From Hyphomicrobiales bacterium (GTDB taxonomy: Bacteria > Pseudomonadota > Alphaproteobacteria > Rhizobiales > Beijerinckiaceae), in NCBI GenBank assembly GCA_027489275.1, contig JAIYAB010000089.1, positions 1 through 37,954 on the forward strand: a stretch of DNA of 37,954 bases, read 5' to 3'. Every line of letters starts with the position of its first letter. The first letter of the stretch is position 1. The notes beneath the pieces are model-generated. The model saw only the letters and a list, made by a program, of their open reading frames with translations, did not search any database and was not told the origin of the DNA. Position numbers and translations under genes: made by a program. Of this stretch, positions 15,805 to 33,673 are shown piece after piece.

Positions 15805-16620
15805 CTAGCGAGGTGTGCCGCCGGCATTCAAGCTCAGGTTTCCGCCATCGACCGGCAACATGACGCCGGTAATCATCGACGAGGCGCCCGAAACGAGGAA
15901 GTGAATGGCCGCAGCGATCTCATCGGCTTCGGCAAGTCGTCCGAGGGGAATGCCGCGCAGCATTCGGGCCAGAAGTTCCCGCCCCTCCGGGGTCTCGACC
16001 CAGTCGACGAAGCTGGGCGTCTTGACCTGGCAGGGCTGGACGGCGTTGACGCGGATGCCGGCGCCTGCCCATTCGACCGCAAGTTCGCGGGTCATCTGGT
16101 TCACGCCGGCCTTGGCAACGCTGTAGCACATGTTTCCCCGCCCGAGCGCCGCGCTGGCGGCGATGGAGCTCACATTCACGATGCGCCCACCGCGGCGTGC
16201 CTTCATGAGACGCTGCGCCACGGCGCGCGACATCAGGAAGGTGCTGGTGAGGTTCACGTCGAGCACCCGTCTCCAGTCCGCGATCTCGAGCGTCTCCGGA
16301 AGGATATGGCAACCAACGCCCGCGTTGTTGACCAGGACATCGATCAGGCCGAGTTGCGCGGAGATCTGCTCGACGAGCATTTCGACTGTCGCCTCGTCCG
16401 ACACATCCCCTGCCCAGCCATGAACCGCGAGACCTTCGGCCTGAAGCAAGCCGACAGCCTCACGCATCTCCTTCTCGCGGATGTCGATGACAGCGACCGT
16501 GGCGCCGTGCCGTCCCAGCAGCCGCGCCGTCGCGAAACCGATGCCGGCCGCCGCACCGGTCACGACACAGACAGCTCCTGAGAGATCGTGGAGCATTGCC
16601 GATGATCGAGTATCTGCCAT
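15805..16620 (-). CDS. SDR family NAD(P)-dependent oxidoreductase
   Basis: VVTGAAAGIGFATARLLGRHGATVAVIDI, VLVNNAGVG, YSVAK motif; start chosen at MADTRSS. Confidence 0.92.
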   Translation of the reverse strand: MADTRSSAMLHDLSGAVCVVTGAAAGIGFATARLLGRHGATVAVIDIREKEMREAVGLLQAEGLAVHGWAGDVSDEATVEMLVEQISAQLGLIDVLVNNAGVGCHILPETLEIADWRRVLDVNLTSTFLMSRAVAQRLMKARRGGRIVNVSSIAASAALGRGNMCYSVAKAGVNQMTRELAVEWAGAGIRVNAVQPCQVKTPSFVDWVETPEGRELLARMLRGIPLGRLAEADEIAAAIHFLVSGASSMITGVMLPVDGGNLSLNAGGTPR

Positions 16621-16651
16621 GTCGTTCTCCAGTTGAGAGGGATCGTCGGGT

Positions 16652-17443
16652 TCAGCCGGCGCCATGTCTTTTCCGGCCGGGGATCGATGCGATCAGTGCC
16701 CTTGTGTACTCGTGACGCGGATTGGAGAAGACCTGCTCCGTCTCCCCTCCCTCGACGAACTCGCCTTCCCGCATGACGTAGGTTCGGCGCGCGATGTACC
16801 TGATCACGGCGAGGTCGTGGGAGATCAGGATGATCGACAATCCTTCCCCGAGGAGGCGATTGAACAGGTTCAGAAGTTGCGCCTGAGCGCTCTGATCGAT
16901 CGCAGACGTTGGCTCGTCGGCCACGAGGACTGACGGTTCGGCCGATAGCGACCTGGCAACGCTCACACGCTGGCGCTGCCCGCCGGAGAGCTGGCGCGGT
17001 TTCTTGAGCGCGTCGTGTCGCGCAACTCCCATGCTCTCGAGAACGCGGAAGGCTTCTTCCCGCGCATCCGCCATCGAACAGCGATGATGAACACGCCATG
17101 CCTCTGCGACCGTACCCAACGCGCTCAGGCGGGGATTCAAGCTCGTATAGGGATCCTGAAAGACCATTTGCACCTGGCGGCGCAAATCGCCTGGATAAGG
17201 CTGGGAGCCATCGAACACCGACCGCCCCTTGAACGTCACGGAGCCTGTATCGGGCTTCTGCAAACCGACGAGAACGCGGGCCAGCGTGGACTTTCCGCTG
17301 CCGGACTCCCCCACGATGCCGATCGCCTCGCCCTGACCGAGAAACAGCGAGACCCCCTTGACCGCGGCAAACCGGTTCCGGCCCGACCCGAATGAAACTC
17401 CCAGCCCGTCGGCGACCATCAGATGGTCTTCGGCATTGCTCAT
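16652..17443 (-). CDS. Oligopeptide/dipeptide-type ABC transporter ATP-binding protein (DppF/OppF-like)
   Basis: Walker A GESGSGKST; signature LSGGQRQRVSVAR; Walker B VLVADEPTSAID; start MSNAEDH overlaps upstream stop. Confidence 0.92.
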   Translation of the reverse strand: MSNAEDHLMVADGLGVSFGSGRNRFAAVKGVSLFLGQGEAIGIVGESGSGKSTLARVLVGLQKPDTGSVTFKGRSVFDGSQPYPGDLRRQVQMVFQDPYTSLNPRLSALGTVAEAWRVHHRCSMADAREEAFRVLESMGVARHDALKKPRQLSGGQRQRVSVARSLSAEPSVLVADEPTSAIDQSAQAQLLNLFNRLLGEGLSIILISHDLAVIRYIARRTYVMREGEFVEGGETEQVFSNPRHEYTRALIASIPGRKRHGAG

Positions 17444-18444
17444 GGAAGTCGGTCCCAGTGCAGGCAGGCTGACGAGCGGCCCTGGCCGATGGGCCGGAGC
17501 GGAGGATGATCTCCTTGTCGACAGTCGCTGCGGGCCATGTCGCATCGGTCCGCAAACCGGCAGCCCGCCTGCCAGGATCCGACGGCGGGCGGTCGACCGA
17601 CAATCGTGACGAGTTCCTGGCCCGGTGCAGCCAGTTCGATCCGGGAGCGCTGGAGGGCTGCCGTATAGGGGTGCTTCGGCTTCGCGAGCTGCTCCACACC
17701 GGCCGTTTCGATGCATGCGCCCGCGTGCATGACAACGACCTTCTCGCAAACATCGTCGATCAACGCCAGATCGTGAGAAACGAGAAGAATGGACAATCCC
17801 ATGTCCGCCTGGATCGTCCTCAGGAGCTTCATGATCTCGGCCTGCACGGTCACGTCGAGGCCAGTCGTCGGCTCGTCGGCGACGAGCAATTGCGGTCGTG
17901 GTGCGATTGCGGAGGCAATGATGACTCGCTGACGCATTCCGCCCGACAGCTGGTGGGGAAACTGCCTGAGCACGACTTCCGGCCGCCGAATACGGACGAC
18001 GTCCAGCAGGCCCTTCGCCCTTGCGGCGCTCGATTCGGCATTCGCCGAAAGATCCTGGTCGATCGCCTCGCGCAATTGCGCTTCGATCGTCATGACCGGA
18101 TTCAATCCGGCCAGGGCGCTCTGGGTGATGTAACCTATTTTCTTTCCGCGGATATCGCGCCAGGCTCTCTCGTCGATCGACGCCAGATCGTGGCCGGCAA
18201 ACTCGATCCTGCCCGACATGATGAAGGCGCCGCGACGAGGAAGAGTGCCGATCAGGCTGCGGCAGACCATCGACTTTCCGGATCCCGATTCGCCGACCAG
18301 TCCCACGATTTCGCCGCGACCGATCTGGAAGTCGGCCCTGTCGACGACACGCAACGGCTCGCGGCTTCCCTGCCGGATACCGATCCGCAGGCCGCTGACA
18401 TCGACGAGCGCGGGCGCCGGAACTGGTAGAGGAGCGCCGGACAT
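17440..18444 (-). CDS. Oligopeptide/dipeptide-type ABC transporter ATP-binding protein (DppD/OppD-like)
   Basis: Walker A GESGSGKSM; LSGGMRQRVIIASAIA; LLVADEPTTGLDVT; C-terminal CRFADRCDMARSDCR. Confidence 0.92.
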   Translation of the reverse strand: MSGAPLPVPAPALVDVSGLRIGIRQGSREPLRVVDRADFQIGRGEIVGLVGESGSGKSMVCRSLIGTLPRRGAFIMSGRIEFAGHDLASIDERAWRDIRGKKIGYITQSALAGLNPVMTIEAQLREAIDQDLSANAESSAARAKGLLDVVRIRRPEVVLRQFPHQLSGGMRQRVIIASAIAPRPQLLVADEPTTGLDVTVQAEIMKLLRTIQADMGLSILLVSHDLALIDDVCEKVVVMHAGACIETAGVEQLAKPKHPYTAALQRSRIELAAPGQELVTIVGRPPAVGSWQAGCRFADRCDMARSDCRQGDHPPLRPIGQGRSSACLHWDRLP

Positions 18445-19307
18445 CAGGAGATTCCTTGCTCGCGACGATGCAGGCCCTCGGCAAGAAACGACAGGGCGAC
18501 CCCTGCCCAGCACAAGGCGAGACCCGGGAAGATCGTCATCCACCAGGCGTCGCGAACGAAGGGGCGCCCTTCGCTCATCATGACGCCCCACTCGGCTGTC
18601 GGAGGAGCGGCCCCCAGCGACAGGAATGACAGTCCCGACACGAGCATGATCACGAGGATGAAGTCGCTCAGCCCGTAGGCGATCGTCTCCGAGGAGACGT
18701 TCGGCAGGAAGTGACGGAGGTAGATCCGGGTGCGCGAATAGCCGAGCAACCGAACGGCCTCCATGAAGCCCTGCTGCTTCACCACGGCGGCGCGCGTTTG
18801 GGCAATCCGGGCATAGCGGGCCCAGTTTGTCAGGGCCAGGATGATGACGATGCTCGTCAATCCGGGTCCCAGGATCGCAATCAGGGCGATGGCGAGGACC
18901 AGAAGCGGCAGCGCATTGATCGCCTCGATCAAGGTATTGATGGCGTTGACGACGAACCCGTTCCGCAAAGTACTCAGCACGATCCCCACCAGCGTGCCGA
19001 CCACGAGAGGGATCACGACGCCGAGGAAGGCGACGCCGAGATCCCTGTAGACGGCCGCGAAGACCCTTACGAAGACGTCGCGACCGAGTTGATCCGTTCC
19101 GAAATAGTGAGTTGCGGACGGAGGCAGGAGAGGCCGCGCGACGAGTTCGTTGGGGTGGAACTCGCTCAATGCAGGAACCAGCGCGCCCGCGACAAGCATC
19201 GCCAGCAGCATAAGGGAGCCGACCCATATGCCGATGCGCCCCTCGCGGTAAAGTCCGGGCCCGTCGCTGTCCGGGTCGGCAGCCGTCTCGCTCGCCACGG
19301 CCGTCAT
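18444..19307 (-). CDS. ABC transporter permease (DppC-like)
   Basis: HYFGTDQLGRDVFVRVFAAVYRDLGVAFLGVVIPLVVGTLVGI. Confidence 0.92.
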   Translation of the reverse strand: MTAVASETAADPDSDGPGLYREGRIGIWVGSLMLLAMLVAGALVPALSEFHPNELVARPLLPPSATHYFGTDQLGRDVFVRVFAAVYRDLGVAFLGVVIPLVVGTLVGIVLSTLRNGFVVNAINTLIEAINALPLLVLAIALIAILGPGLTSIVIILALTNWARYARIAQTRAAVVKQQGFMEAVRLLGYSRTRIYLRHFLPNVSSETIAYGLSDFILVIMLVSGLSFLSLGAAPPTAEWGVMMSEGRPFVRDAWWMTIFPGLALCWAGVALSFLAEGLHRREQGIS

Positions 19308-20284
19308 CTCAGTTCCAGCCTCGGATCGAGCCAGCTCGCGAGCACGTCACCCACGAGGTTGATGGCGACGACCGCGAGTCCGAAGAGCAAGACGCAGCCC
19401 TGGACCACCGGATAGTCGCGACCGATGACGGCCCCGACAAGCGCTCGGCCAATTCCGGGAAGCGAGAAGATGGTCTCGATGATGACCGTGGCGCCGACCA
19501 TCACACCGACCATGTAGCTCAGCAGCACGATGGAAGGCGCCAGGGACGGGCGTAACAGATAGTACCAGTAGAACCTCAGCCTGCCGACGCCTCGGACCAC
19601 GCCCGTCTCGACGAACTCCTCCGCCATGGTCTCCTTGATGGAGCTGTAGAGAACCCGCGACAGCACGGGAACGAGATGCGTGCAGATGACCAGGGCGGGC
19701 AGCCAGACGTAATAGAGGTTCTCAGGAAAGTCGGGCTTGTAGCCGATGATCGGCGCGACGCCGTAGTGGACGCCAAGAACGATCAGGGCGATGAGAGCGG
19801 TGAAGAAGGCGGGGATCGCCAGGAAGACGGATGTCACTGCGCGAAAGATGTACGGCACCGACGAATGCCGGGCCGTTGCGACCCAGGCAGCCAGAGGGAC
19901 CGCCATGCAGAGGCCGAGGACGACCGTGACGGCGATGACCCAGAGTGTCACGGGTAGCGAGGTTGCGATGATGTCGCTGACGCGCCTTCCATTCTCGATC
20001 GAAACTCCCAGGTCGCCTTTCAAAAGAGCGAGGAAGTACTCGACGAACTGCGTGACAGGATCGACATCCAGTCTCAGCTGGCGTCGAAGCCGCTCGATTG
20101 CGGCCGGCTCCGCCTCGGCGCCGAGCCGCGCGAGCACGGGGTCTCCCGGCGCGAGCCTGATCAGGCCGAATGCGATCACCATCACCCAGAAGGAGACGGC
20201 GGCGGCGCGCAGCGTGCGGTAGCCGAGACTGCCCAGAACGCGACGTCCTGCGGAACGAGAGTGGTCGGTCGCGTCCATATGCAA
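19304..20284 (-). CDS. ABC transporter permease (DppB-like)
   Basis: FGLIRLAPGDPVLARLGAEAEPAAIERLRRQLRLD; VIIETIFSLPGIGRALVGAVIGRDYPVVQG; ATGA overlap with the dppC-like gene. Confidence 0.92.
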   Translation of the reverse strand: MHMDATDHSRSAGRRVLGSLGYRTLRAAAVSFWVMVIAFGLIRLAPGDPVLARLGAEAEPAAIERLRRQLRLDVDPVTQFVEYFLALLKGDLGVSIENGRRVSDIIATSLPVTLWVIAVTVVLGLCMAVPLAAWVATARHSSVPYIFRAVTSVFLAIPAFFTALIALIVLGVHYGVAPIIGYKPDFPENLYYVWLPALVICTHLVPVLSRVLYSSIKETMAEEFVETGVVRGVGRLRFYWYYLLRPSLAPSIVLLSYMVGVMVGATVIIETIFSLPGIGRALVGAVIGRDYPVVQGCVLLFGLAVVAINLVGDVLASWLDPRLELR

Positions 20285-20385
20285 CGTCGATCACCTGCGC
20301 CGATACACGCCAGACTGATGGATACCCCGGCAAGCGCCCGGCGCGTCACCGCGCCGGGTACCAGGGGAAGCGGCTGCCCGCCGGA

Positions 20386-21966
20386 TCAATTGGCCGGCAA
20401 TGCAGGTGTCGTCTTGACGAACAGATACTCGCCCGGCCTGACCGCCTCCACGACGCCGCGCGCATGGCGAATGCCGCTCAGGGAGAACTGCGACGTCAGC
20501 GGGATGTAGGAGGAGTCGTCCACCGCCAGTAGCTCCAGCTTGCGCAGCAAGTCCTTGATTTTCGCCGGATCGCTCGAGGATCCGGCCTCGGTCAGGAGCG
20601 CGGCAGCCGTCGGGTTCTCGAAGCCGGAATTCACGACCCAGGCTCCCCCGGGGAAGAACCAGTTGCGCAACTGCAGGATCGGAGTCTGGACTGCATTGCG
20701 GAAGAAGACCAGTTCGTAGTTACGGGCGCGTATCCGCGTGGTGATATCTGCGTCCGGCAAAGGCTTCACGTTCGCGGTGATGCCGATCTTCGCGAGATCC
20801 GCCGCGACGACCTGTGCGGCTTCCGCCCATTGCGGCCGTGCCGGGACGATCATCTCGAAGGAGAAGCCGGTGGGCCATGCCGTCTCCGCCAGCCGTGCCT
20901 TGGCTGCGGCGACGTCCGGGCGCCCGTCATTGGGAAGCGAGCACTGGAAGTATGGGTTGCCGGGCTTGAACGCATAGGCACAGGCCGGCTCGGGAATCCC
21001 GAAAAAGCCGATGTCCGCCACCCGCTTTCGATCGATGACCAGCGACATGGCCTGTCGGACCTTCTTGTCCTTCAGCGCGGCGTTCGGCTGTCCCTGGTAA
21101 TTGTTGACGGCCAGCATGAAGGTGCCGGGTTCGGCATGATTGATGATCGTGACCTTGGAATCGTCATTTCGCGACGCTGCATTCAGCGGAAGCGTATAGA
21201 CGTAGTCGACTGAACCCTGCTGCAGCGCAAGAAGGCGCGAGGTAGGATCCGGAATGACGACGATGCGCAGTTCCTGCACATGGGGCTTCGCCCAGTAGTG
21301 CGGGTTGGCCTTCAGAACCATCTGATCGGTCCCGGGGGTCCACTCCGAAAGCATGAGCGGGCCGGCGCTCACGGGCTTCTTGAAATACTCCGCAGGCGTC
21401 TTCTCCTGGATCTGCTTCTTCGGATGGATGCCGAGGAAGTGCGACGCGATGGCATGCTTGAAGTCGGGATACGGGGAAGACAGGCTCCACACGATGGTTC
21501 CATCGCCCTGCGCCGTCACGGACTTGATCGGAGCGATGAAGGCGCTGGAGATTCCCGCGGCTCTCCACCGCTCGAAGGCGAAAACGACGTCTTCCGCGAG
21601 AACGGGAGTTCCATCGGAATACTTGGCGCCCTTCCTGATCGTCTGGGTGATGGTGAGGCCGTCGGGCGACACGCTCTCAGCCTCGATCAGATCCATGCGA
21701 GGCACGAGATTGATGTCGTACCGGTAGAGCAAACCCTGTTGCGGATACATCGGCTGGTAGTCGGTGCTCGGACCACCCGCGGATGGATCGAGGCTTGTCG
21801 TACGCGCGCCGATTGCCATCGTCACTGTCGCGCATTCAGCCTTGTCCGTCGGCGTGGCCAATGTGCAGTTCGGACCCGGATTGGCCAACGCCGGCACTGA
21901 CGCGGCCAGCGCAAGGCCGAGCACTGCTGCCGGCCGCAGGACCAGTCGAAGGGACATCGTCGTCAT
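20386..21966 (-). CDS. ABC transporter substrate-binding protein, SBP family 5
   Basis: Signal peptide; GLTITQTIRKGAKYSDGTPVLAEDVVFAFERW family 5 signature; start chosen at MTTMSLRLVLR. Confidence 0.9.
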   Translation of the reverse strand: MTTMSLRLVLRPAAVLGLALAASVPALANPGPNCTLATPTDKAECATVTMAIGARTTSLDPSAGGPSTDYQPMYPQQGLLYRYDINLVPRMDLIEAESVSPDGLTITQTIRKGAKYSDGTPVLAEDVVFAFERWRAAGISSAFIAPIKSVTAQGDGTIVWSLSSPYPDFKHAIASHFLGIHPKKQIQEKTPAEYFKKPVSAGPLMLSEWTPGTDQMVLKANPHYWAKPHVQELRIVVIPDPTSRLLALQQGSVDYVYTLPLNAASRNDDSKVTIINHAEPGTFMLAVNNYQGQPNAALKDKKVRQAMSLVIDRKRVADIGFFGIPEPACAYAFKPGNPYFQCSLPNDGRPDVAAAKARLAETAWPTGFSFEMIVPARPQWAEAAQVVAADLAKIGITANVKPLPDADITTRIRARNYELVFFRNAVQTPILQLRNWFFPGGAWVVNSGFENPTAAALLTEAGSSSDPAKIKDLLRKLELLAVDDSSYIPLTSQFSLSGIRHARGVVEAVRPGEYLFVKTTPALPAN

Positions 21967-22035
21967 GAATTCCTCCCGTGGAGCAGCCGCGGTTTCGCTG
22001 CTGATTGTTTGTTTGGAGTTCGATACGCGATAATC

Positions 22036-22045
22036 TGTGATCACG
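22036..22045. promoter_or_regulatory. Near-palindrome TGTGATCACG between divergent SBP and Rieske genes
   Basis: taatcTGTGATCACGgttatg; 9 of 10 bases identical to the sites at 11116 and 13962. Confidence 0.6.
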
Positions 22046-22355
22046 GTTATGATGCGATGCAGCCGCGGCCGTGTCCAGTGCCTTGTGCCGGGTATTCCGT
22101 TCAGAGACGCCGCGTGGTGCCTACGGGGAGCAGAGCTCGGAGCGGCTCGCGCGAGTCCTGCGCGCGCCCGAAGTCAGGCCCCCGCCCCTCCTTGCGCATG
22201 CTGAACACCCGGGCTAACGTCCAGAAAACTTACAAGCGTTAGAAAATTCGGAAACGTATCCCGAGGACCGTTCGCCTGGAGGCCGGCCCGGCCGCTTCTC
22301 TGGAAGCCGCGCCCGCTGCCGTGGCAGCGCTCCGTACCCGCAGGAGCACATAGGC

Positions 22356-23453
22356 ATGTTCATCAAGGATACGTGGTACGTGGCGGCCTGGCACCACGAG
22401 GTGACCCGCACGATCTTGGCCCGCACCATCCTGAACGTTCCGCTGGTTTTCTTTCGCCGGCAGGACGGATCCGTCGCAGCGCTCGAGGACTCCTGCCCGC
22501 ACAAGTTCATGCCTCTGTCGGGCGGCTATGTTCAGGGCGATACGGTGGTATGCGGCTACCACGGCATGACGTTCGACGGCTCGGGTCGTTGCGTGCGCAT
22601 CCCCGGGCAGGAGACCATTCCGCGCAACGCCCGCACGCGCAGTTTCCCCGTGGTCGAGCGGTACGGCTGGATTTGGATCTGGATGGGCGATGCCGAACAG
22701 GCCGACCCCGCCCTCATCATCGACATTCCCCAGATGAGCGACGGCCAGTGGGCTCCCTCCCGCGGCGAGCGGATGCATTACAAGGGCGGGTACCAGCTGA
22801 TGACGGACAACCTCATCGATCCGTCCCACGTGACCTACGTCCATGCCAAGACCCTCAGCAACTCGACCGAGGCGGAGCTTCCTATCGAGACCTCCGTTCA
22901 TGAGGATCATGTCGCCGTGACCCGCATCGTGCGTGACAGTCCGCCCGCTCCGTTCTTCCAAAGCCTTGGCAACTACAAGGGCAATGTCCACCGCTGGCAG
23001 GTCTATCGCGTCGCCCCGCCATCACTGTGCATCATCGACACAGGCACCGCGCCGGCCGACAGCATCTCGCCAGAAGATCTCGATCTGGCAGCCGACTCGC
23101 TCACCCGTTCGGTCAGCCTCCGCGGCGGCGATAGCAGCCGACTCCTTTGTATTCGCGGCATCGACTTCCTGACGCCCGAGACCGACAAGACCACGCACTA
23201 TTTCTGGTTCCTGCTGAGAAACTTCGCCCTCGACGACCGTACCTGCGAGCGCAACGTCACCGAGCAGGCGACAAAGGCGTTCAACGAAGATCTCGTCGTC
23301 GTGGAGGCGGTGCAGCGCCGTATCGACCTCGGTCAATTGCCGCCGCAGGTTATCCTCAAGGCCGATGCCGGATCGGTCCAGGTGCAACGCCTCTTTGCCC
23401 GCAAGCTGGCCGCGGAACAGAAGCGTTACGCCGATCGGGCGGCGACCGCATAG
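22356..23453 (+). CDS. Rieske [2Fe-2S] non-heme iron oxygenase alpha subunit, VanA-like
   Basis: Rieske motif CPHKFMPLSGGYVQGDTVVCGYHG; mononuclear-iron motif region DNLIDPSHVTYVH. Confidence 0.93.
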   Translation: MFIKDTWYVAAWHHEVTRTILARTILNVPLVFFRRQDGSVAALEDSCPHKFMPLSGGYVQGDTVVCGYHGMTFDGSGRCVRIPGQETIPRNARTRSFPVVERYGWIWIWMGDAEQADPALIIDIPQMSDGQWAPSRGERMHYKGGYQLMTDNLIDPSHVTYVHAKTLSNSTEAELPIETSVHEDHVAVTRIVRDSPPAPFFQSLGNYKGNVHRWQVYRVAPPSLCIIDTGTAPADSISPEDLDLAADSLTRSVSLRGGDSSRLLCIRGIDFLTPETDKTTHYFWFLLRNFALDDRTCERNVTEQATKAFNEDLVVVEAVQRRIDLGQLPPQVILKADAGSVQVQRLFARKLAAEQKRYADRAATA

Positions 23454-23464
23454 CTGGGGCCTCC

Positions 23465-23782
23465 ATGTCGTCGTCCGATGACGAGGCGCCTGGCGAGGCC
23501 GGGGCGCTCGCGGAAGGGGAATTCGAAGTCGTGCTCGCGCGAGCGGGCCGACGCTTTGTCATCCGACCTCACGAGGGGATCCTCGAGACGCTGCTGGACG
23601 CCGGCCTGGACGTGCCGTTCTCCTGCCAGGAGGGCGTGTGCGGACAGTGCCTGACCCGTGTAATCACGGGCACTCCCGATCATCGCGACAGTTTTCTGTC
23701 GCCAGCTGAACAAGCCTCGAACACCGTGATGACGATCTGTGTGTCCCGCTGCCGCGGGACACGTCTGCTGCTGGACGTGTGA
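23465..23782 (+). CDS. Stand-alone plant-type [2Fe-2S] ferredoxin resembling the C-terminal domain of VanB-type reductases
   Basis: LLDAGLDVPFSCQEGVCGQCLTRVITGTPDHRDSFLSPAEQASNTVMTICVSRCRGTRLLLDV; 105 aa, ATG 11 bp after the Rieske stop; no FMN/NAD domain. Confidence 0.85.
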   Translation: MSSSDDEAPGEAGALAEGEFEVVLARAGRRFVIRPHEGILETLLDAGLDVPFSCQEGVCGQCLTRVITGTPDHRDSFLSPAEQASNTVMTICVSRCRGTRLLLDV

Positions 23783-23975
23783 TGAACTGGGGGGGGCACT
23801 GTCAACTCAACCAGCCCGCGCGCATGGTTCGAGTTGTCGATCCTCGCCGTCACGCCGCGACGGTCGGATTCGGCCAATCTCGTCGAGATGCCAACGGTCG
23901 TTTGGCCGCTGTCGCCCGGCACGCAGGTTTCGAGCGAGTCTTCCACATCGGAGCGATCGCCTTCGGCGGGAATTC

Positions 23976-23995
23976 CATGCCGATCTCTCGGCATG
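23976..23995. repeat. Perfect hairpin CATGCCGA-TCTC-TCGGCATG in a convergent intergenic region
   Basis: 8 bp arms, 4 nt loop, between ferredoxin stop (23782) and amidase stop (24017); no T-tract. Confidence 0.5.
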
Positions 23996-24016
23996 AGCGT
24001 GGGACACGTGATGCTC

Positions 24017-25432
24017 TCACGCACCTTGCGGACGGCAGTCGACAGGCGTCGACACCGGCCGTCCAAGGGCGTGCTCCGCCGCCCGCATGGCTGCGACGAG
24101 AACGGGCTCCTGCAGCATCTGTGTAATGAACTGTAGGCCGACAGGCAGCCCGTTCCGGCCGAACCCACAGGGGAGCGAGCCCGCCGGTTGGTGGCCGAGG
24201 TTGAATGGATAGGTAAAGTAGGACCACACCGCCGCCGTCTCGTGGCCGGGCGGAAGACCGCGCTCGATGTCCCACGCCACGCAGGGCGTCGTCGGCGTCA
24301 GCAGCAGGTCATGGCGCTCGAAGAACCGGCGCAGCGTCTCCCGGTGTTCGAGGCGCCGGCGCATGATGCGCGCGAAGCGGTCGGAGCCCATCGCACGAAA
24401 GTCCCGGATGGCTGCGAGCAGTGGAGGGTCGATGAGGTCGGGGGTCGCGTCGATGGCGTCACCTAAGCGTGCGCTGCAGCCGCCGATGAACTCGGCTCCC
24501 AGGATCTCGGCCGGATCGGGGCAGACGGTGTCGACCAGTTCGATATCGGGCCAGATGGTGCGGAGCCTTTGCACCGCCGCCTCGACCGCGCGGGCAACGT
24601 CCGGGTCAGGCCGCCCGTAACCGAGCGTCGGGCTGAAAGCCACCCGCAGCCGGCGGACGGCGCGTTCGTCGGGCTCGCCCGCCATCGCCGGATAGAGCGA
24701 AAAGGCGTCGCGCAGGTCGGGGCCGGCGATGGCTCGCAGGAGGATCGACGCGTCCTCGACCGTGCGGGCGATGGGGCCGACGTGAGCCAGCGTGGGCGTG
24801 GCGCTCGCCGGCCAGACCGGAACGCGCCCGAAGGTCGGCTTGATGCCGACGAGCCCGGTCAGGGCGCAGGGCGACCGGATGGAGCCGCCGCCGTCGGTTC
24901 CCAGCGCGATCGAGGTCACGCCGGCCGCCACCGAGGCGACGGCGCCGCCGGACGAGCCGCCGGGCGTCCGCCCGAGATTCCAGGGATTGGCCGTGTTGCC
25001 GTGCACGAGGCTCTTCGTGTAGCCGCGATAGCCGAACTCCGAGGTGGTGGTCTTGCCGATGATCACCGCACCTGCGTGCCGCACGCGTGCGACGGAGGGG
25101 GCGTCCTCGTGCGGGACGTAGTCCTTCATCGTCAGCGAGCCGAAGGTGCACGGCAGGCCCGCGACATCGATCAGGTCCTTGACTGACACGGGCACGCCGA
25201 GCAGGGGCCTGTCGGTAGATTCCACCGGCTGGCGAAGAAGCTCCGCCTCCGCGGCGCGCGCCTGCACCATGGCGCCGTCCCGATCGACGGTGACGAAGGC
25301 GTTCAGCGCGCTCTCGGTCTCCTCCAGTCGCTCCAGCGACCGCGCCGTCACCTCGACAGGGGAAAGTTCGCGGCGGCGCATCGCTGCCGAGAGCGAGACA
25401 GCATCCATGCGGTCGATGTCGTTCAGGGGCAT
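24017..25432 (-). CDS. Amidase signature-family amidohydrolase
   Basis: GVPVSVKDLIDVAGLPCTFGS; GRTPGGSSGGAVASVAAGVTSIALGTDGGGSIRSPCALTGLVGIKPT. Confidence 0.93.
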   Translation of the reverse strand: MPLNDIDRMDAVSLSAAMRRRELSPVEVTARSLERLEETESALNAFVTVDRDGAMVQARAAEAELLRQPVESTDRPLLGVPVSVKDLIDVAGLPCTFGSLTMKDYVPHEDAPSVARVRHAGAVIIGKTTTSEFGYRGYTKSLVHGNTANPWNLGRTPGGSSGGAVASVAAGVTSIALGTDGGGSIRSPCALTGLVGIKPTFGRVPVWPASATPTLAHVGPIARTVEDASILLRAIAGPDLRDAFSLYPAMAGEPDERAVRRLRVAFSPTLGYGRPDPDVARAVEAAVQRLRTIWPDIELVDTVCPDPAEILGAEFIGGCSARLGDAIDATPDLIDPPLLAAIRDFRAMGSDRFARIMRRRLEHRETLRRFFERHDLLLTPTTPCVAWDIERGLPPGHETAAVWSYFTYPFNLGHQPAGSLPCGFGRNGLPVGLQFITQMLQEPVLVAAMRAAEHALGRPVSTPVDCRPQGA

Positions 25433-25437
25433 GGCGG

Positions 25438-26133
25438 TCAATCCAGGAACGCGAGCGCCCGGACAGGAGAGCCGGACCCTTTCTTGAACTTCAGCGGAAA
25501 GGCCTGGAACTGGAACACGCCGACGCCGACGAGCTCCTCGAGATTGCACAGCCACTCGACATGCGTCATGCCGCGGTCGCGCGACACGCGGTGGCTGGGG
25601 AATTCCGCCCAGTTCGGACGATCCGTCGAGGGGCCCTCGACGCCGTGCAGGCGCGAGCCCCGGTCGGCGAGCCAGTGCGTCGCCGCCGCAGTCAGCCCGG
25701 GATTGGAGAACATGACGCTGTCGTTCGGGTAGTGGCGGCGGTGCAGCCCGGTGTTGAGCAGCACGATGTGGCCCTCCACCCGCACGCCCGCCTTGCGCTC
25801 GGCGGCCTCCATGTCGGCCACGTCGATGTCGCCGAGGTCGGGGATGTGTGTCAGGTCGAAGCAGACGGCGGGGCCCATGAAGAGATCGAGCGGCATCTCG
25901 TCGATCGGCGCGCCCGTGGGGCTCAGGTGGAAGAACGCATCGACGTGCGTGCCGACGTGATTGAGCATGCCGACGAACTCGATCGGTGTCGTGAACGGAT
26001 CACCCGGAACGCCCTGGTTGTAGGCGAGACAACTCTCATGGGTCATCCACGGAAGGAACACCGGCCGGGGCATGTTCTTGTGCGCCGGCATGTTGTTTTC
26101 GATGGTGACGCTCAGATCGATGATCCGCGGCAT
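25438..26133 (-). CDS. Cyclase family protein (kynurenine formamidase-like metal hydrolase)
   Basis: MPRIIDLSVTIENNMPAH; metal-binding HVGTHVDAFFH; HIVLLNTGLHRRHY. Confidence 0.9.
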   Translation of the reverse strand: MPRIIDLSVTIENNMPAHKNMPRPVFLPWMTHESCLAYNQGVPGDPFTTPIEFVGMLNHVGTHVDAFFHLSPTGAPIDEMPLDLFMGPAVCFDLTHIPDLGDIDVADMEAAERKAGVRVEGHIVLLNTGLHRRHYPNDSVMFSNPGLTAAATHWLADRGSRLHGVEGPSTDRPNWAEFPSHRVSRDRGMTHVEWLCNLEELVGVGVFQFQAFPLKFKKGSGSPVRALAFLD

Positions 26134-26155
26134 GGGAAGGCCTCCGGTCTGCGTT

Positions 26156-27427
26156 TCAGCGCATGAAGAAGTTCGGGAGCGCCAGCGGTATCGCCGGCAC
26201 GAAGGTGATCAGGATCAGCACCGCAAAGATCGGCACGAGGAACGGCAGGCAGGCGCGGAACGTGGCGTAGAAGTCCAGCCCCGAGATCCGCGCCATGACA
26301 AAGAGCAGCAGGCCGACCGGCGGGGTCATCAGGCCGATCATCAGGTTGAGGACCATGACGATCCCGAAGTGCACCGGATCAATGCCGAACTGCGTCAGGA
26401 CCGGCATGAAGATCGGCACTGCGATGAGGATGATCGCGATGGTCTCCAGGAACATCCCGGCGACGAGCAGGATCAGGTTGAGGATGAGGAGGGCCTGCCA
26501 GGGCTCCTGGATCGCCCCGAGCATCATCCGCGTGAATTCCTGCGCCGCATTCTCGCGGACGAGGATCCAGCCGAACAGCGACGACGCCCCCACCATCAGC
26601 ATGACGACCGACGTCGTCTCGACCGTCTCCACGAGGGAACCCAGCACCGACTTGAGGCCGAAACTGCGGTAGACGAAGACGCCGATGAGCAGCGCGTAGG
26701 CGGCGGCCACGGCGGCGGCCTCCGTCGGTGTCGCGACGCCGAGCACGATCCCGCCCATGATGATGATCGGCATAAGCAGCGCCGGCGCACTCGTCCTGAG
26801 GGCTGCCAGGCGCTCGCCCCATGTCGCCCTGGGCTCGACCGGATAGTTGCGGCGGCGCGCGTACCACGCGACCTGCACGTGCATGGCGGCGGCCATCAGG
26901 ATGCCCGGGACGATGCCGGCCAGGAAGAGTTGCCCCACCGACGCGCCCGCCGCAAAGCCGTAGACGACGAGCGGCAGGCTAGGAGGAATGACCGGCCCCA
27001 TCGTGGCCGAGGCCGCCGAGATGCCGACGGCGAAGGGCATGTCGTAGCCACGGTTGCGCATGGCGCGGACCTCCATCGCGCCGAGGCCGCCCGCATCGGC
27101 GATCGCCGTGCCGCTCATGCCCGAGAAGATCATGCTGTTGAGAATGTTGACCTGGCCGAGTCCGCCGCGCCAGTGCCCCACCATCCTGTGCGCGAATTCG
27201 AACAGGCGGTCGGTGATCGCGCCGGCGTTCATCAGGCTGCCGGCAAGCACGAAGAACGGCACGCACAGCAGTGGGAAGCTGTCGACGCCGGAGACCATCT
27301 TCTGGATGGCGATGAGCGGCGGGATCCCGTTGGCCACGATGTAGACGATCGAGGCTCCGGCGATGGCGACGAAGACCGGCGCACCGATCAGCAGCAAGAC
27401 CGCCAGCGCCGAGAAAAGAAGGATCAT
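26156..27427 (-). CDS. dctM: TRAP transporter large permease, DctM family
   Basis: VLAGSLMNAGAITDRLFEFAHRMVGHWRGGLGQVNILNSMIFSGMSGTAIADAGGLG. Confidence 0.94.
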   Translation of the reverse strand: MILLFSALAVLLLIGAPVFVAIAGASIVYIVANGIPPLIAIQKMVSGVDSFPLLCVPFFVLAGSLMNAGAITDRLFEFAHRMVGHWRGGLGQVNILNSMIFSGMSGTAIADAGGLGAMEVRAMRNRGYDMPFAVGISAASATMGPVIPPSLPLVVYGFAAGASVGQLFLAGIVPGILMAAAMHVQVAWYARRRNYPVEPRATWGERLAALRTSAPALLMPIIIMGGIVLGVATPTEAAAVAAAYALLIGVFVYRSFGLKSVLGSLVETVETTSVVMLMVGASSLFGWILVRENAAQEFTRMMLGAIQEPWQALLILNLILLVAGMFLETIAIILIAVPIFMPVLTQFGIDPVHFGIVMVLNLMIGLMTPPVGLLLFVMARISGLDFYATFRACLPFLVPIFAVLILITFVPAIPLALPNFFMR

Positions 27428-27885
27428 CGAACGGCTACCGGGCGAACGAGCGACACGATCTCGACGACGATCCGGACGACGCCGCCCGCCAGTCCCGCCG
27501 CCACGACGGCGTAGAGCCAGCTCATCGGCATCTCCATGGCGGCGCTGCGCGAGTTGGCGAGGATGGGCATGATCCGGACCGCCTGGAGGGCGAGGAAGGC
27601 CACAACAGCAAGGCTGACGAGCAGCACGAACAGCCGAACCGTCCGCGCGACTGGCGAGGGCAGCCGGTCGACGAGGTCGACCCGGATATGGCTGTCCTTG
27701 CGGAAGCCGAGCCCGGTCCCGACGAAGGTGATGATCACAAGCCCGAAACGGGCAAACTCCTCGGCCCAGACGAGGCTGTCGTTGAGGACGTACCGGAAGA
27801 ACACCGACACGACGACGACGATGAAGATCGAAACGAGTACGAGGACGGCGATCGCGTCCTCGTACTCGCGGATCATGCCTCGCAT
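27424..27885 (-). CDS. dctQ: TRAP transporter small permease, DctQ family
   Basis: VFFRYVLNDSLVWAEEFARFGLVIITFVGTGLGFRKDSHIRVDLV; ATGA overlap with dctM. Confidence 0.93.
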   Translation of the reverse strand: MRGMIREYEDAIAVLVLVSIFIVVVVSVFFRYVLNDSLVWAEEFARFGLVIITFVGTGLGFRKDSHIRVDLVDRLPSPVARTVRLFVLLVSLAVVAFLALQAVRIMPILANSRSAAMEMPMSWLYAVVAAGLAGGVVRIVVEIVSLVRPVAVR

Positions 27886-27910
27886 GGCGGACCTCGCCCG
27901 GTGCGTTGCG

Positions 27911-28903
27911 TCAGATCCCCTTCACACGCGCGACGAGTTCGGCCGACGCGCCGAGATCCTTGGCGAGTTGCTCGACGGCCGGCGCCAGGGCGGCCTGGAA
28001 CGCCGCAATGTCGGGCTTGGTGAAGGTGATCAGCTTGTCGGCTTCCATCTTCGCGCGCAGGCCATCCTCCTGCTCGGCGATCAACTGCGTCGACCGCTCC
28101 GCATAGAGGCCGGCGGCCTTCTGCATGCAGTCCTTGTCGGCCGGCGAGAGCTTCGACATCACGTGGTCGCCGACGATCCAGAACACGAATTCCATGAGGT
28201 GCGCCGTCGGGTTTACGTACTTCTGCACCTCGTAGAACTTGAACGCGAAGGTGATCGGAAGCGGGTTGGCCGAGGCAGTCACTACGCCCTGCTGGAGCGC
28301 GAGGTATACTTCCGCGAGCGCCACGGGGGTCGGGTTGGCGCCGACCGCGCGCGGGAAGGCGAGCCAGATCGGCGCATCGGGAACGCGGATCTTCATGCCC
28401 TTCATGTCCGCCGGCTTCTCGACCGGCGTGTTAGACGTCACGTTGAAGGCGCCGAAGTATCCGGCCGACAGGATGTGCTGGCCGGTGGCCTTGTTCCAGC
28501 CGGCCCACAGCTCCTTGAAGACGGCGCTGTCGCGATATCGCAGCGCCTGCTGCCTGTCCTTGAAGATGAAGGGCGCGGCGCCGATAGCCAGCGGCTTGAA
28601 GGCCGACGAGGCGAAGATCTGCCCCGTGAAAATGATGTCGACGCCGCCGAAGCGGACCTGCTCGTTGAGCGCGTTCTCGTTGCCGAGCTGCGATGTCGGA
28701 TAGACGCCGATGGTGTGGCGGCCCTGCGTGCACGCCTTGAACTGCTCGGCGGCCGCGACGGCGGCAACGTGCATCGGATGGGAGACCTCGTAGACATGAC
28801 CGAGCTTGAACTCGGTGGCGTGGCCCGTGGTCGCGCCGAGCGCCGACAAGGCGACGACCGCGAGACCGAGCGTCGAACTGCGAATGCGGGAAGGCATGGA
28901 CAT
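27911..28903 (-). CDS. dctP: TRAP transporter substrate-binding protein, DctP family
   Basis: Signal peptide; FKLGHVYEVSHPMHVAAVAAAEQFK; TSNTPVEKPADMKGMKIRVPDAP. Confidence 0.92.
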   Translation of the reverse strand: MSMPSRIRSSTLGLAVVALSALGATTGHATEFKLGHVYEVSHPMHVAAVAAAEQFKACTQGRHTIGVYPTSQLGNENALNEQVRFGGVDIIFTGQIFASSAFKPLAIGAAPFIFKDRQQALRYRDSAVFKELWAGWNKATGQHILSAGYFGAFNVTSNTPVEKPADMKGMKIRVPDAPIWLAFPRAVGANPTPVALAEVYLALQQGVVTASANPLPITFAFKFYEVQKYVNPTAHLMEFVFWIVGDHVMSKLSPADKDCMQKAAGLYAERSTQLIAEQEDGLRAKMEADKLITFTKPDIAAFQAALAPAVEQLAKDLGASAELVARVKGI

Positions 28904-28916
28904 CGGGAGCCCCTTT

Positions 28917-28958
28917 GTTCTAGTAATAGAACGACATTCCACCAGTAGAACTAGGTTC
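28917..28958. promoter_or_regulatory. Candidate IclR operator region: GTTCTA-GTAA-TAGAAC (28917-28932) and GAAC-TAG-GTTC (28948-28958)
   Basis: Two inverted repeats with GAAC/GTTC arms in the short divergent dctP/iclR intergenic region. Confidence 0.65.
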
Positions 28959-28965
28959 CGATTGA

Positions 28966-29766
28966 ATGAGGGATATTGTCAAGCAGGCCGCGCGTAGCGA
29001 GCCGGCCCGCGTACCGGCCCTGAGCAAGGCAATCGCCATCCTGCGATTCCTGAATGCGAGCCCTCGCCTGTCGGCCGGGGTGTCGGAGATCGCTGTGTCG
29101 CTTGGCATCGCCAAGAGCCACTGCTTCAACATCCTGCGGACGCTCGAGGCGGAGGGGTGGGTGCGCTTCGACGCGGAGCGCCGCCGCTACGATCTTTCGG
29201 CGAGACTGCTGACGGACGTCTCGCGGCTGCTGGCGGGTGGAGCCCAGGCCGCGTCGGTGCATGCCGAACTGGTGCGGCTCTCGGAAGCCGCGCGGCTCCC
29301 CTGCGTTCTGACGCGGATCGAGGCGGACGGAACGTTCACCGCCATCGACAAGGCGGAGGATGCGGCGGAACTGCTGGTATCGGTTCCCATCGGCCACCGC
29401 TTCCCGATGGACGCCCCGGCTCAGATGCGGGTTCGGCTGGCGTGGGCGCCGGCCGCCGAGCGAAAGCGCATCCTCGCGCGGTGGAAGCCTGTCGCCTACA
29501 CGCCGACAACAATCGTCGACAAGGCGGACCTGATGCGCGAACTCGACGCCACCCAGGCACGAGGCTTCGCGATCAGCCGGGCGGAGTTCACAACGGGCGT
29601 AACCACCCTCGCCGCTCCGGTCTTCGATGCCGACGGAGCCGTGCGCTACGTTCTCCAGTGCCCGGGTCTCGAAGCGGACGTCCCGTCCCGCAAGCACGAC
29701 GTCGCAGCGCCGCTGCTTCAGGCGGCGGAGCGCATCGGGATTATGCTGCGCAATGCAGCCGCCTGA
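28966..29766 (+). CDS. IclR family transcriptional regulator
   Basis: LSKAIAILRFLNASPRLSAGVSEIAVSLGIAKSHCFNILRTLEAEGWVRFD; RGFAISRAEFTTGVTTLAAPVFDADG. Confidence 0.93.
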   Translation: MRDIVKQAARSEPARVPALSKAIAILRFLNASPRLSAGVSEIAVSLGIAKSHCFNILRTLEAEGWVRFDAERRRYDLSARLLTDVSRLLAGGAQAASVHAELVRLSEAARLPCVLTRIEADGTFTAIDKAEDAAELLVSVPIGHRFPMDAPAQMRVRLAWAPAAERKRILARWKPVAYTPTTIVDKADLMRELDATQARGFAISRAEFTTGVTTLAAPVFDADGAVRYVLQCPGLEADVPSRKHDVAAPLLQAAERIGIMLRNAAA

Positions 29767-30177
29767 ATTGCAAAGGGCCTCGGCGGGGATGATGTGCTCC
29801 GACGGATGGTGCCGAAGAGGATGGGGATCTTCTATTGCAGACCGCCGCCGCTCTGCGTGAACGCAACCTTCCCGCGTCATCAACAGCGTCTATACTATGC
29901 AGGACTTTGTCGGCCATGGCCCATCCGACGACCGACGTTACCGCTATACCGCGGCCGTCGCAGCCGATGGCACCATCGAACCCTCGCCCGGGCGGTAGAT
30001 GGCGGCCGGAAATCGCGTGTGACGAAAGCGGTCACGCGCCAGACGAACTCCACGTCCGGCGCGGAAGGCAGGCCCAGTCGCGACGCACTTCGCCTTCCAG
30101 GGCGTTGATCTGCGCCTGCGCACGCTGCACCGTCTGCGCCGCGACACCCTTGCCCTGATCCCGTCGCGATCCGCCAG

Positions 30178-31263
30178 TCATCCGCCGAAGATCACCACGT
30201 CCGGGATCTCGAAGCGCTCGTCGCCGATCGTGAGCATGTTGAGGTCAGCGTTCCGCTTGACGTCCAGTCGGGCGCCGGCGCCGGTTTCGGATTGGTCGAA
30301 GCGCACAGGGGTCCCCTTTTCGAACGTGATCGTCCGGCTGCCTGCATCTGGCCAGAAGATGGTCACGTCCCCGTTGCCACCCCCCCGGCGAACGACGCCG
30401 AACTTGCAGGACTCCATGGGTTGTCCGGCACGGCGGGCGCAAGGAATCTCGCCGGTGGCGTGAAACCTTGTCCCGGCCACCAGAGCGTCTCCCTTGATCG
30501 ATGCCGCGGGGGTCGGGCCAGGAGGCGTAGCACTTGCGCCGGCATAGCTTCCCTCGCGCAGGAACCTGCCCGCCACCCATCCCGCCACCGAAGGATCCTC
30601 GGGTCTCTCGACAGCGCACCAGCGCTGTCCATCGGCCATCCGGCAGCCCGTGTTGCGCAAGACGTCGCCGTTCTTGAAGCGCGTGACGACGGGTTCTTTG
30701 GTCGACGGTCCGCGCCGCATGTTGAGCGCATCGCCGGCCTGGACACCGCTGACCTCCCAGAAATCCGGCCCCCCTTGAAGGCCGTCGGCGAAATCGGCTT
30801 TCACCGGCGGACGTGAGGCCGCATTGCCGAGCGCCGAGATCGAGACGTCGAGACGGTAGGTCGACCGCTCGTTCCGTCTCGCGGCAGCGCGGATCATGTA
30901 GACGGATATCGTGTATGTGCCGGATGTGGGCAGTTTCCCCCGGAACCGGTTCAGATCCGGGACCATGGGACCCGTCATCTCGCTGACGGCCAGCGCTTCG
31001 TCGCCCGGTCCACGCCCGGGTTCGTAAATGTTGAAGTACGTGAACAGATTAGACGGCTTCAACGTGACGTTCATCGTCTGGCCGGCCTCCGCCCCGACCG
31101 TATAGGATACCGACCCGCGGCCGACGATGCTCCCGCGGATCACCGTACCCGTCTTTCCGGCCGGAATGCGGACTGCCTCGGTTCTGATGACGTCCTGCGC
31201 CCATGCCGGGGAATGGCCGGCCAACAAAGCGGCCAAGAGCAGGCAGTTGGCGATGCGTCTCAT
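30178..31263 (-). CDS. Secreted SH3-domain-containing protein of unknown function
   Basis: Signal peptide MRRIANCLLLAALLAGHSPAWAQ; bacterial SH3-like ALNMRRGPSTKEPVVTRFKNGDVLRNTGCRMADGQRWCAVERP. Confidence 0.72.
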   Translation of the reverse strand: MRRIANCLLLAALLAGHSPAWAQDVIRTEAVRIPAGKTGTVIRGSIVGRGSVSYTVGAEAGQTMNVTLKPSNLFTYFNIYEPGRGPGDEALAVSEMTGPMVPDLNRFRGKLPTSGTYTISVYMIRAAARRNERSTYRLDVSISALGNAASRPPVKADFADGLQGGPDFWEVSGVQAGDALNMRRGPSTKEPVVTRFKNGDVLRNTGCRMADGQRWCAVERPEDPSVAGWVAGRFLREGSYAGASATPPGPTPAASIKGDALVAGTRFHATGEIPCARRAGQPMESCKFGVVRRGGGNGDVTIFWPDAGSRTITFEKGTPVRFDQSETGAGARLDVKRNADLNMLTIGDERFEIPDVVIFGG

Positions 31264-31416
31264 GGACTTGTCCTTCAGATGGGCACGGACCCACGCCCGC
31301 GACAACGGTCGAAGCAAGGTCCCCTTACGTTCCCTTTCAGCCGGGAACACTTGGACCGATTGGCACGGGGCACTAGAATGCCGCAGGCTTGACCTTGTAC
31401 TCCGCAGAGAAGCTAA

Positions 31417-32139
31417 CTATTTCCCTTCTACTTGTACAAGGTACTCGGGGTGATGAACGGCCAGCCCCTCGACGACCGCTTCGTTTGATGCGATGTGGCG
31501 CTGCATCGCCTCTCGCGCGCCATCCGGGTTCCCTTTGGCGATCGCCTTGGCGATCTCACGGTGGAACTCCACCGCGAGCGGACCGCGATTGAGGTGGAGC
31601 GAGAGGTAGTGCACGCGGTCCATGTTGGCGCGTGCGACACGCACCATGCCCCACATCGTCGGGAGATGGGCGGCCTCGAAGATCATTCTGTGGAACTCCG
31701 CGTCGAGGTCATAGACCTTTTCCGCCTCGTTCCGGCCGAATGCCGCGGCCTGGTTTTCGACGACTTGAAGAAGGGCCTGACCCGTCAACGCGCACTCCGG
31801 CGAGGAGGCGGCCGTTGCTGCGGCTTCACCTTCCAGAAGCGCGCGGATGCGTATGGCCTCGTGCAACCGCGCTAAGTCGAGCGGCGTGACGAAGGTGCCA
31901 AGTCCCGGAAAGATCTCGACCAGCCCTTCGTCTCGGAGCCGTTGAAGCGCTTCGCGGACTGGCGTGCGACTGATGCCGGCCTCTTCGGCGATGACGGTCT
32001 CATAGAGCGGTTCGCGCGGCCTGAAGACGAGCCGGACAATCCTTTCGCGCAGTTGCGAGTAAACCTGCTCGGCTGCCGGCTTTCGACGATCGACCCTCAA
32101 CCGCGCCCACTTGGCCGCCGGGACAGTACCCGCTTCCAT
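31417..32139 (-). CDS. GntR family transcriptional regulator, FCD subfamily
   Basis: EQVYSQLRERIVRLVFRPREPLYETVIAEEAGISRTPVREALQRLRDEGLVEIFPGLGTFV; FCD ligand-domain residues DAEFHRMIFEAAH. Confidence 0.92.
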   Translation of the reverse strand: MEAGTVPAAKWARLRVDRRKPAAEQVYSQLRERIVRLVFRPREPLYETVIAEEAGISRTPVREALQRLRDEGLVEIFPGLGTFVTPLDLARLHEAIRIRALLEGEAAATAASSPECALTGQALLQVVENQAAAFGRNEAEKVYDLDAEFHRMIFEAAHLPTMWGMVRVARANMDRVHYLSLHLNRGPLAVEFHREIAKAIAKGNPDGAREAMQRHIASNEAVVEGLAVHHPEYLVQVEGK

Positions 32140-32192
32140 TGCCGTCTCCCGGTAGATTCGTTCGCCATGTGGTTGCTGCTGCTTCCATATGC

Positions 32193-32202
32193 CTGTATAC
32201 AG
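32193..32202. promoter_or_regulatory. Palindrome CTGTATACAG, candidate GntR/FCD operator
   Basis: Perfect 10 bp palindrome in the divergent intergenic region (32140-32218); core matches the TGTATACA core of E. coli UxuR/ExuR sites. Confidence 0.6.
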
Positions 32203-32218
32203 CAGGGAGAACAAGGTG

Positions 32219-33673
32219 ATGAGCCTTCTTCCGTCAAGCAAGAGAGGCCACGTGACGCAACGCAGCGTGGGTGTAACGGTCCTCCCGGAGTTCTTCCAGG
32301 TCGAAGGCGTCGAGTCGGTACTCGACAATCTCACCAGTCGGGCCGGCATCACCGCCATCGCGACGTCTCCCTACGTGATGCGGCCCGCGCCGGACGGAGA
32401 GGGCAGCCGGGAGCCTCCTATCGATGGGGGCGCGGGGTCGGTCCGCCTGCTCGATCGCCCGCTCTGGGGCCGACGCGAGTTGTGGGTGCGCACGGCGCCG
32501 AGCTTCGAGCCGCGCCGGAGCCTCTATGACGGTTTGCGGTACCGGCCGGCCGAACCAGACGACCTCACCCGGAAGGAGGGCGACGTCGTCGAACAGGCAA
32601 TCCGTTCCGCCAAGGTACGCGGCCTGGAGGTTCACCTGCAGGTGCAGGCGGCGATCCCGCCGGGCTACCGCGTCCAGTTCGGCGGCCCGGTGGAGGAGGA
32701 TCGCCCCGCCCTGCCGGACCGCTCCTCGCCCAGGGTCCGCGTGGACAACAACGGCTCCCTCGCGAGCCCGCACATCCTCGCCTATACGCAGGCCCTGATC
32801 CGCGACGTGATCGGCGCCTATCCGGACATCGACGTGCTGCGGATCGACTGGCCGGAATACCCGCCCTACTCGCTCGACGCGCTGTTCTTCGACTTCTCCC
32901 CCCACGCCATGCGCCTGATGGAGGAGCTCGGGTACGACGCCGAGCGGATCCGCTCCGACGCTGCCGGCCTCTATAGCGCCCTCTCCGGCCTCGCCCCGGG
33001 CGATGCGGGTCGGGCTCTTGCCGCGGGCCCTTACGGGCTCGGTCGCCTGTTGATGACGCGCCCGGGCCTGCTGGCATGGCTGCAGGCCAAGGCGGCTATC
33101 GTCACCCGTTTCATTGCGTCCTGCGCGGCTACGACCAGAGAGGCCTCGGGGGGACGGGTGCGGCTGATGCCGCAGGCGTTCCCTCCGCCATGGACGCTGC
33201 TGTCGGGCTTCGACTACGCGGCTGTTGCCGGCACAGGCGTTTCTGCGATCGGGGTCAAGCTCTATACGATGCACTGGCCGATGATCCTGCGTAGCATCTG
33301 TGACGCGCTCGTTGCCCACGCGCCGCCGCTGGCGAGGGATGACGGCCTCGCCGATGACGTCGCCGGCCTGCTCGGGTTGGTGGATGGAGGCCAGCGCCTC
33401 GGCCCGCGAACGGCAGTGCGCTACCCCGAGCCAGACGAGCCGCATCCTGTCGGCGCAGCGGCGCAGGCGAGCAAGATCCGCATGGCGCAAAGGGAGGCCG
33501 GAGGCGTACCGGTTCACGCCTTCGCCCATGGCTACGGTCCGGTGGCGGACGTTGCCGAGCGGATCCGTGTGGCTTTCGAGGCGTCGGACGGTCGGCTCTG
33601 GGTCAACCGTTACGGCTATCTCGCCGACGCAAAGCTCGACGCGATCGGTCGCATCACGGGAGCACGACCTTGA
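32219..33673 (+). CDS. Uncharacterised protein, possibly a glycoside-hydrolase-like TIM barrel
   Basis: 484-aa ORF with GC-codon coherence and divergent promoter; YPDIDVLRIDWPEYPPYSLDALFFDFSPHAMRLMEELGYD resembles a barrel strand plus acidic catalytic-region pattern. Function is a guess. Confidence 0.6.
   Translation: MSLLPSSKRGHVTQRSVGVTVLPEFFQVEGVESVLDNLTSRAGITAIATSPYVMRPAPDGEGSREPPIDGGAGSVRLLDRPLWGRRELWVRTAPSFEPRRSLYDGLRYRPAEPDDLTRKEGDVVEQAIRSAKVRGLEVHLQVQAAIPPGYRVQFGGPVEEDRPALPDRSSPRVRVDNNGSLASPHILAYTQALIRDVIGAYPDIDVLRIDWPEYPPYSLDALFFDFSPHAMRLMEELGYDAERIRSDAAGLYSALSGLAPGDAGRALAAGPYGLGRLLMTRPGLLAWLQAKAAIVTRFIASCAATTREASGGRVRLMPQAFPPPWTLLSGFDYAAVAGTGVSAIGVKLYTMHWPMILRSICDALVAHAPPLARDDGLADDVAGLLGLVDGGQRLGPRTAVRYPEPDEPHPVGAAAQASKIRMAQREAGGVPVHAFAHGYGPVADVAERIRVAFEASDGRLWVNRYGYLADAKLDAIGRITGARP

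Follow-up and report, generated by a model that had tools for sequence, protein, structure and literature searches.

The window analysed here, meaning the whole stretch of 37,954 nt that makes up one complete contig (C426) of a genome (G000) 84% complete in 496 contigs, is predicted to carry a mobile two-gene cassette, in which a Rieske oxygenase is encoded together with a detached VanB-type ferredoxin that would be re-reduced by an unlinked reductase in a working three-component system. On the sequence evidence, we put the probability of this reading at about 60%. It draws on the gene order, on a complete ferredoxin domain with its ligands, on the signature of selection, on the occurrence of the pair in two surroundings, and on the lack of a linked reductase together with the presence of candidate reductases elsewhere. 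The features discussed are collected in Table 1.

Table 1. Location of the oxygenase-ferredoxin pair, its parts and its neighbours in the window.
Feature	Position	Strand	Basis
Rieske non-heme iron oxygenase, VanA_C family, 365 aa	22356..23453	+	ORF, Pfam, motifs, 99% orthologue in G001
Intergenic stretch of 11 nt, ctggggcctcc, with one difference in G001	23454..23464	+	
Stand-alone plant-type [2Fe-2S] ferredoxin, VanB/PDR C-terminal type, 105 aa	23465..23782 (including stop)	+	Pfam, structure matches, 95% orthologue in G001
Acidic N-terminal extension of the ferredoxin, MSSSDDEAPGEAGALAEG	23465..23518	+	Alignments
Unit common to the window and G001:C67:13110-14736, 1627 bp, 95.1% DNA identity, gapless, flanks unrelated	22166..23792		
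Opp/Dpp-type ABC transporter genes	16655-22044	-	
Amidase	24020-25555	-	
Arylformamidase-like cyclase	25441-26133	-	
TRAP transporter	26159-28942	-	

In the product of the upstream gene, Pfam identified a Rieske domain (2.7e-20) and a VanA_C domain (8.5e-43). The Rieske motif CPH-X17-CGYH, starting at residue 47, and the mononuclear iron motif NLIDPSHVTYVH, starting at residue 152, are both intact and align at the same positions as in DdmC and other relatives, DdmC being the top relative of solved structure (6.9e-52). With the pattern C-X-H...C-X2-H and the mononuclear-iron motif in place, the protein has the ligands predicted for a functional Rieske oxygenase.

The downstream gene is presumed to lie on the same transcript as the oxygenase gene; a scan for a promoter and a terminator of the pair returned nothing convincing. 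The first-pass annotation had given the coordinates, the 11-nt gap and the 105-aa length exactly, and its description of a ferredoxin-only carrier, similar to the VanB C-terminus and preceded by a short acidic extension, is borne out by several observations. Fer2 was the sole Pfam domain detected in the protein (3.6e-13, residues 27-96), and the first 18 residues have a net charge of -5. The closest solved relatives are all ferredoxin domains of reductases, namely 7ylr_A (residues 243-330), 6icm_D and 2pia_A, the last being phthalate dioxygenase reductase (PDR). The isolated NdmD domain 6icm_D aligns over residues 1-87 of 87 (2.1e-18), and this full-length alignment to a solved domain answers the question of the fold. 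The best matches on public plasmids, at 51-57%, are mostly PDR/VanB reductases, and in the ferredoxin tree the protein lies nearest to two full VanB proteins, one from a Rhodococcus plasmid (98/85) and one from the genome G178 (85/81). The protein thus groups with VanB C-terminal domains, and it keeps the four cluster cysteines (C54, C59, C62 and C92) that are invariant across the aligned stand-alone and VanB domains. In the alignments, the acidic extension occupies the place of the linker that joins the NAD domain to the ferredoxin domain in full VanB. Taken together, the structure matches, the plasmid matches and the position of the extension indicate that the small protein is no domain fragment but a whole ferredoxin domain of the VanB type, to which a short linker-like tail is attached.

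The same pair was found in G001, another genome from the genus of the window (record NZ_CAMFHB010000067, uncultured Alsobacter sp.), which is metagenome-assembled according to its record and, like the window genome, fragmented. Both orthologues have the same ends as in the window and the same 11-nt spacing. The first-pass annotation had named a full VanB at this position in orthologues, combined with truncation and lost activity of the window copy, as the finding that would tell against it; the one true orthologous locus, with the 99% identical oxygenase, has a ferredoxin-only gene there instead, and the comparison of the two copies revealed purifying selection on the ferredoxin (dN/dS 0.19, Fisher p = 0.003), the value for the oxygenase being 0.045. 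Since the pair is kept in a second genome and both genes are under purifying selection, their association goes beyond chance. Other orthologous stretches of G000 and G001 show 67-87% identity, and the 95.1% identity of the shared unit therefore suggests that the two genes were probably transferred horizontally, as a unit, in recent time. Target-site repeats common to the two genomes were not found at the ends of the unit. A perfect 9-bp inverted repeat, GTGTCCCGC-TGCC-GCGGGACAC, occupies 23741-23762 in the 3'-terminal part of the ferredoxin gene, 30 bp short of where the shared unit ends; it is not followed by a T-run, and G001 keeps 8 of its 9 pairs.

The pair sits between the ABC transporter genes and the amidase gene, on the opposite strand to them, in minus-strand catabolic surroundings that extend from 15808 to 33529 and include GntR/FCD regulators. 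When the 6.8 kb from 19304 to 26133 were compared with G001, weak, short and partial matches (66-91%) were all that appeared outside the 1.6-kb pair. The window contig may be accessory DNA or misbinned, which would leave the pair itself unaffected.

The first-pass annotation had started from the premise that VanA-type oxygenases normally pair with VanB, which is not supported in the case of the window enzyme. In a tree of 66 oxygenases including it, with neighbours scored mostly within 1.5-kb flanks (so that 'none' means none close by), VanB lay within about 1.5 kb of 19, a KshB/PaaE-like FNR-Fer2 reductase lay directly downstream of eight, and 36 had no detectable electron-transfer gene within about 1.5 kb; two were of the window type, and the last one, from G080, was followed by an 83-aa KshB-type ferredoxin only. 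The VanB-paired oxygenases form a clade of their own, separated from the window enzyme by a branch with 99/95 support, and the enzyme also falls outside that clade in a smaller tree containing DdmC. The oxygenases most similar to it in identity (46-49%) are unpaired, and for four of these the check extended over 14-15 kb; this suggests that the oxygenase lineage was already reliant on unlinked partners. No full VanB was found at the orthologous position; among the relatives, the partner gene is that of a KshB-like reductase, a VanB (in another clade) or missing. From the position in the tree and from these neighbours we infer, as the simplest history, that an oxygenase lineage lacking a linked reductase acquired a detached VanB-type ferredoxin, and not that a VanAB operon lost domains. 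The earlier label of a 'split VanB' stands in so far as the ferredoxin is of the detached VanB C-terminal type; a loss of the FMN and NAD domains in place from a VanAB operon is not the preferred reading, given that the enzyme lies outside the VanB-paired clade and that 36 of 66 oxygenases have no nearby partner.

That the flavin reductase must come from elsewhere, which had been offered as one of two options, agrees with the tblastn searches of the 38-kb window, in which full VanB, KshB-like, Fpr and GR-type queries retrieved no reductase. Neither upstream of the ferredoxin nor elsewhere in the window was homology to FMN or NAD domains detected, and the G001 contig with the pair is likewise devoid of a reductase. 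Candidates are encoded outside these contigs. On contig C205 of the window genome (locus L155, 3795-5259, plus strand), an ISC/adrenodoxin-type ferredoxin adjoins a thioredoxin-reductase-like Pyr_redox_2 protein, possibly a general ferredoxin-reduction pair. G001 encodes an Fpr-like protein of 257 aa (L153) and a HcaD/AndAa-like GR-type ferredoxin reductase, FdR (L151); a GR-type Reductase_C protein was not found in the 84%-complete window genome.

For the cassette reading, docking, electron flow and the use of an unlinked reductase are what we infer beyond these observations. The ferredoxin would be the dedicated one-electron carrier of the oxygenase, docking on it in the manner of the ferredoxin domain of a VanB/NdmD-type reductase; electrons would pass from the ferredoxin to the mononuclear iron by way of the Rieske cluster, and a host-encoded NAD(P)H:ferredoxin reductase (a GR-type FdR, Fpr or a thioredoxin-reductase-like FNR) would re-reduce the carrier. 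Docking without flavin domains appears feasible, since a crystal structure shows the ferredoxin domain of NdmD bound, as a separate piece, to the Rieske oxygenase NdmA (PMC12445004). This caffeine N-demethylase structure (6icm) resembles the proposed arrangement in that a VanB-like C-terminal ferredoxin domain, free in the crystal, is bound to a Rieske oxygenase; in nature, however, the NdmD domain is part of a multidomain reductase, whereas in the window it has its own gene.

Three other explanations have to be weighed against an unlinked general reductase. A full VanB could act in trans, its FMN/NAD half reducing the ferredoxin, or it could serve the oxygenase directly, with the ferredoxin assisting or redundant. 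A full VanB is indeed present in both genomes, on contig C190 of the window genome (324 aa) and on contig C6 of G001, where it adjoins another VanA-type oxygenase, and in two-component systems one reductase can often stand in for another (PMC12445004). Yet the purifying selection on the ferredoxin gene and its co-transfer argue for a role of its own, and the ferredoxin domain of the paralogous VanB in the window genome is only 35% identical to the small ferredoxin, so that we regard this explanation as having a minor, though not negligible, chance of being right. It is improbable, to a further degree, that the ferredoxin serves another enzyme, such as a P450 or a different oxygenase, and adjoins this one by chance: stand-alone VanB-type ferredoxins do occur away from Rieske genes (L194, L199), but here both genes moved as a 1.6-kb unit, 11 nt apart, with nothing else carried.

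The least probable explanation, to which we assign hardly any weight, is that a VanB gene was stripped of its FMN and NAD domains in place, leaving the ferredoxin gene as a decaying remnant. The resemblance to the C-terminal third of VanB only, with the N-terminus in the linker region, is what such a loss would leave; against it stand the G001 orthologue with the same ends and gap, the dN/dS of the ferredoxin, the four retained cysteines, the oxygenase lying outside the VanB-paired clade and the upstream DNA without FMN/NAD-domain homology. A decayed truncation is ruled out by the orthologue together with the dN/dS, and this idea can be considered largely refuted.

The search for ferredoxins of this type also covered 398 genomes from the order and 385 from the class, where full-length reductases hold most of the matches. 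In G456 (L147) a 105-aa VanB-type ferredoxin directly follows a LigXa_C-family Rieske oxygenase, and in G271 (L148) one of 95 aa directly precedes an alpha/beta ring-hydroxylating oxygenase; no reductase ORF was seen among the neighbours of either. Stand-alone VanB-type ferredoxins are also encoded by G747 and by two genomes belonging to a single family, one of which has the genes in tandem. The tandem genes, about 90 aa each, are located at L194 (3028-4185, plus strand) and also at L195, with no Rieske gene near the array in the short contigs covered, and a relative of the array genome has additional copies (L196, L197). Two apparent cases were discarded: in G452 one VanB had been read as two overlapping frames, and in G316 the end of a contig cuts through a VanB. 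A single ancient family of stand-alone ferredoxins, with the eight rows as one clade, was rejected (p-AU 0.024). Well-supported branches force at least four changes of the stand-alone state, a rough figure from 86 alignment columns only, which points to at least four origins, roughly counted, of detached VanB-type ferredoxins; the neighbour is an unrelated Rieske oxygenase in two cases.

Rieske systems are usually classified so that those with FNR-C reductases (type I) stand apart from those with separate ferredoxins (types III-V) (Kweon et al. 2008, PMC2358900). With the VanAB or phthalate-dioxygenase-type systems of type I, the window pair shares an oxygenase of the VanA_C family, with Rieske and VanA_C domains, and a carrier homologous to the C-terminal [2Fe-2S] domain of VanB/PDR, but it has no linked FMN/NAD/[2Fe-2S] reductase, the FMN and NAD domains being absent, and its oxygenase is outside the VanB-paired clade. 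As in type IV, the [2Fe-2S] ferredoxin is separate; a GR-type FdR, as a candidate to serve it, was found in G001 and not in the incomplete window genome. In the dicamba O-demethylase system DdmABC, to which DdmC belongs, the ferredoxin and the reductase are separate proteins, and the ferredoxin DdmB is of the adrenodoxin type, not of the VanB type; the tree places DdmC itself on a long branch well away from the window enzyme, a position that is weakly supported. The pyrazon oxygenase of Phenylobacterium immobile and the carbazole dioxygenase of Sphingomonas KA1 use a stand-alone PF00111 ferredoxin and a separately encoded GR-type reductase from scattered genes (PMC7907043); unlike in the window, their oxygenases are of other subfamilies and the ferredoxin gene is not directly linked to the oxygenase gene. 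The G080 locus (L086, 7846-8097, minus strand) comes close in layout, with an oxygenase 40% identical to that of the window followed only by the 83-aa ferredoxin, although this one is of the KshB/PaaE type and other members of the clade mostly have full KshB-like reductases. As the clade usually carries full reductases, G080 may be the cleaner case of in-place domain loss.

Separate ferredoxins with separate reductases are thus established for Rieske systems; the window pair differs in having a free ferredoxin of VanB (FNR-C) type that moves together with its oxygenase, the two genes forming a cassette. It has been suggested that three-component systems may in some cases derive directly from those of type I and type II (Kweon et al. 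2008, PMC2358900), and pairs of an oxygenase with a VanB-type ferredoxin are natural candidates for that step. Tentatively, and with odds that we place below even, fission of VanB-type ferredoxins could be a recurrent route by which Rieske oxygenases pass from a dedicated reductase to the general ferredoxin reductases of the host, the pairs spreading as minimal mobile cassettes that would be functional wherever the host supplies a suitable reductase. The window pair also cautions against taking the lack of an adjacent VanB as a sign that a Rieske gene must be broken, and such ferredoxins could be compact modules for running orphan Rieske oxygenases in other hosts.
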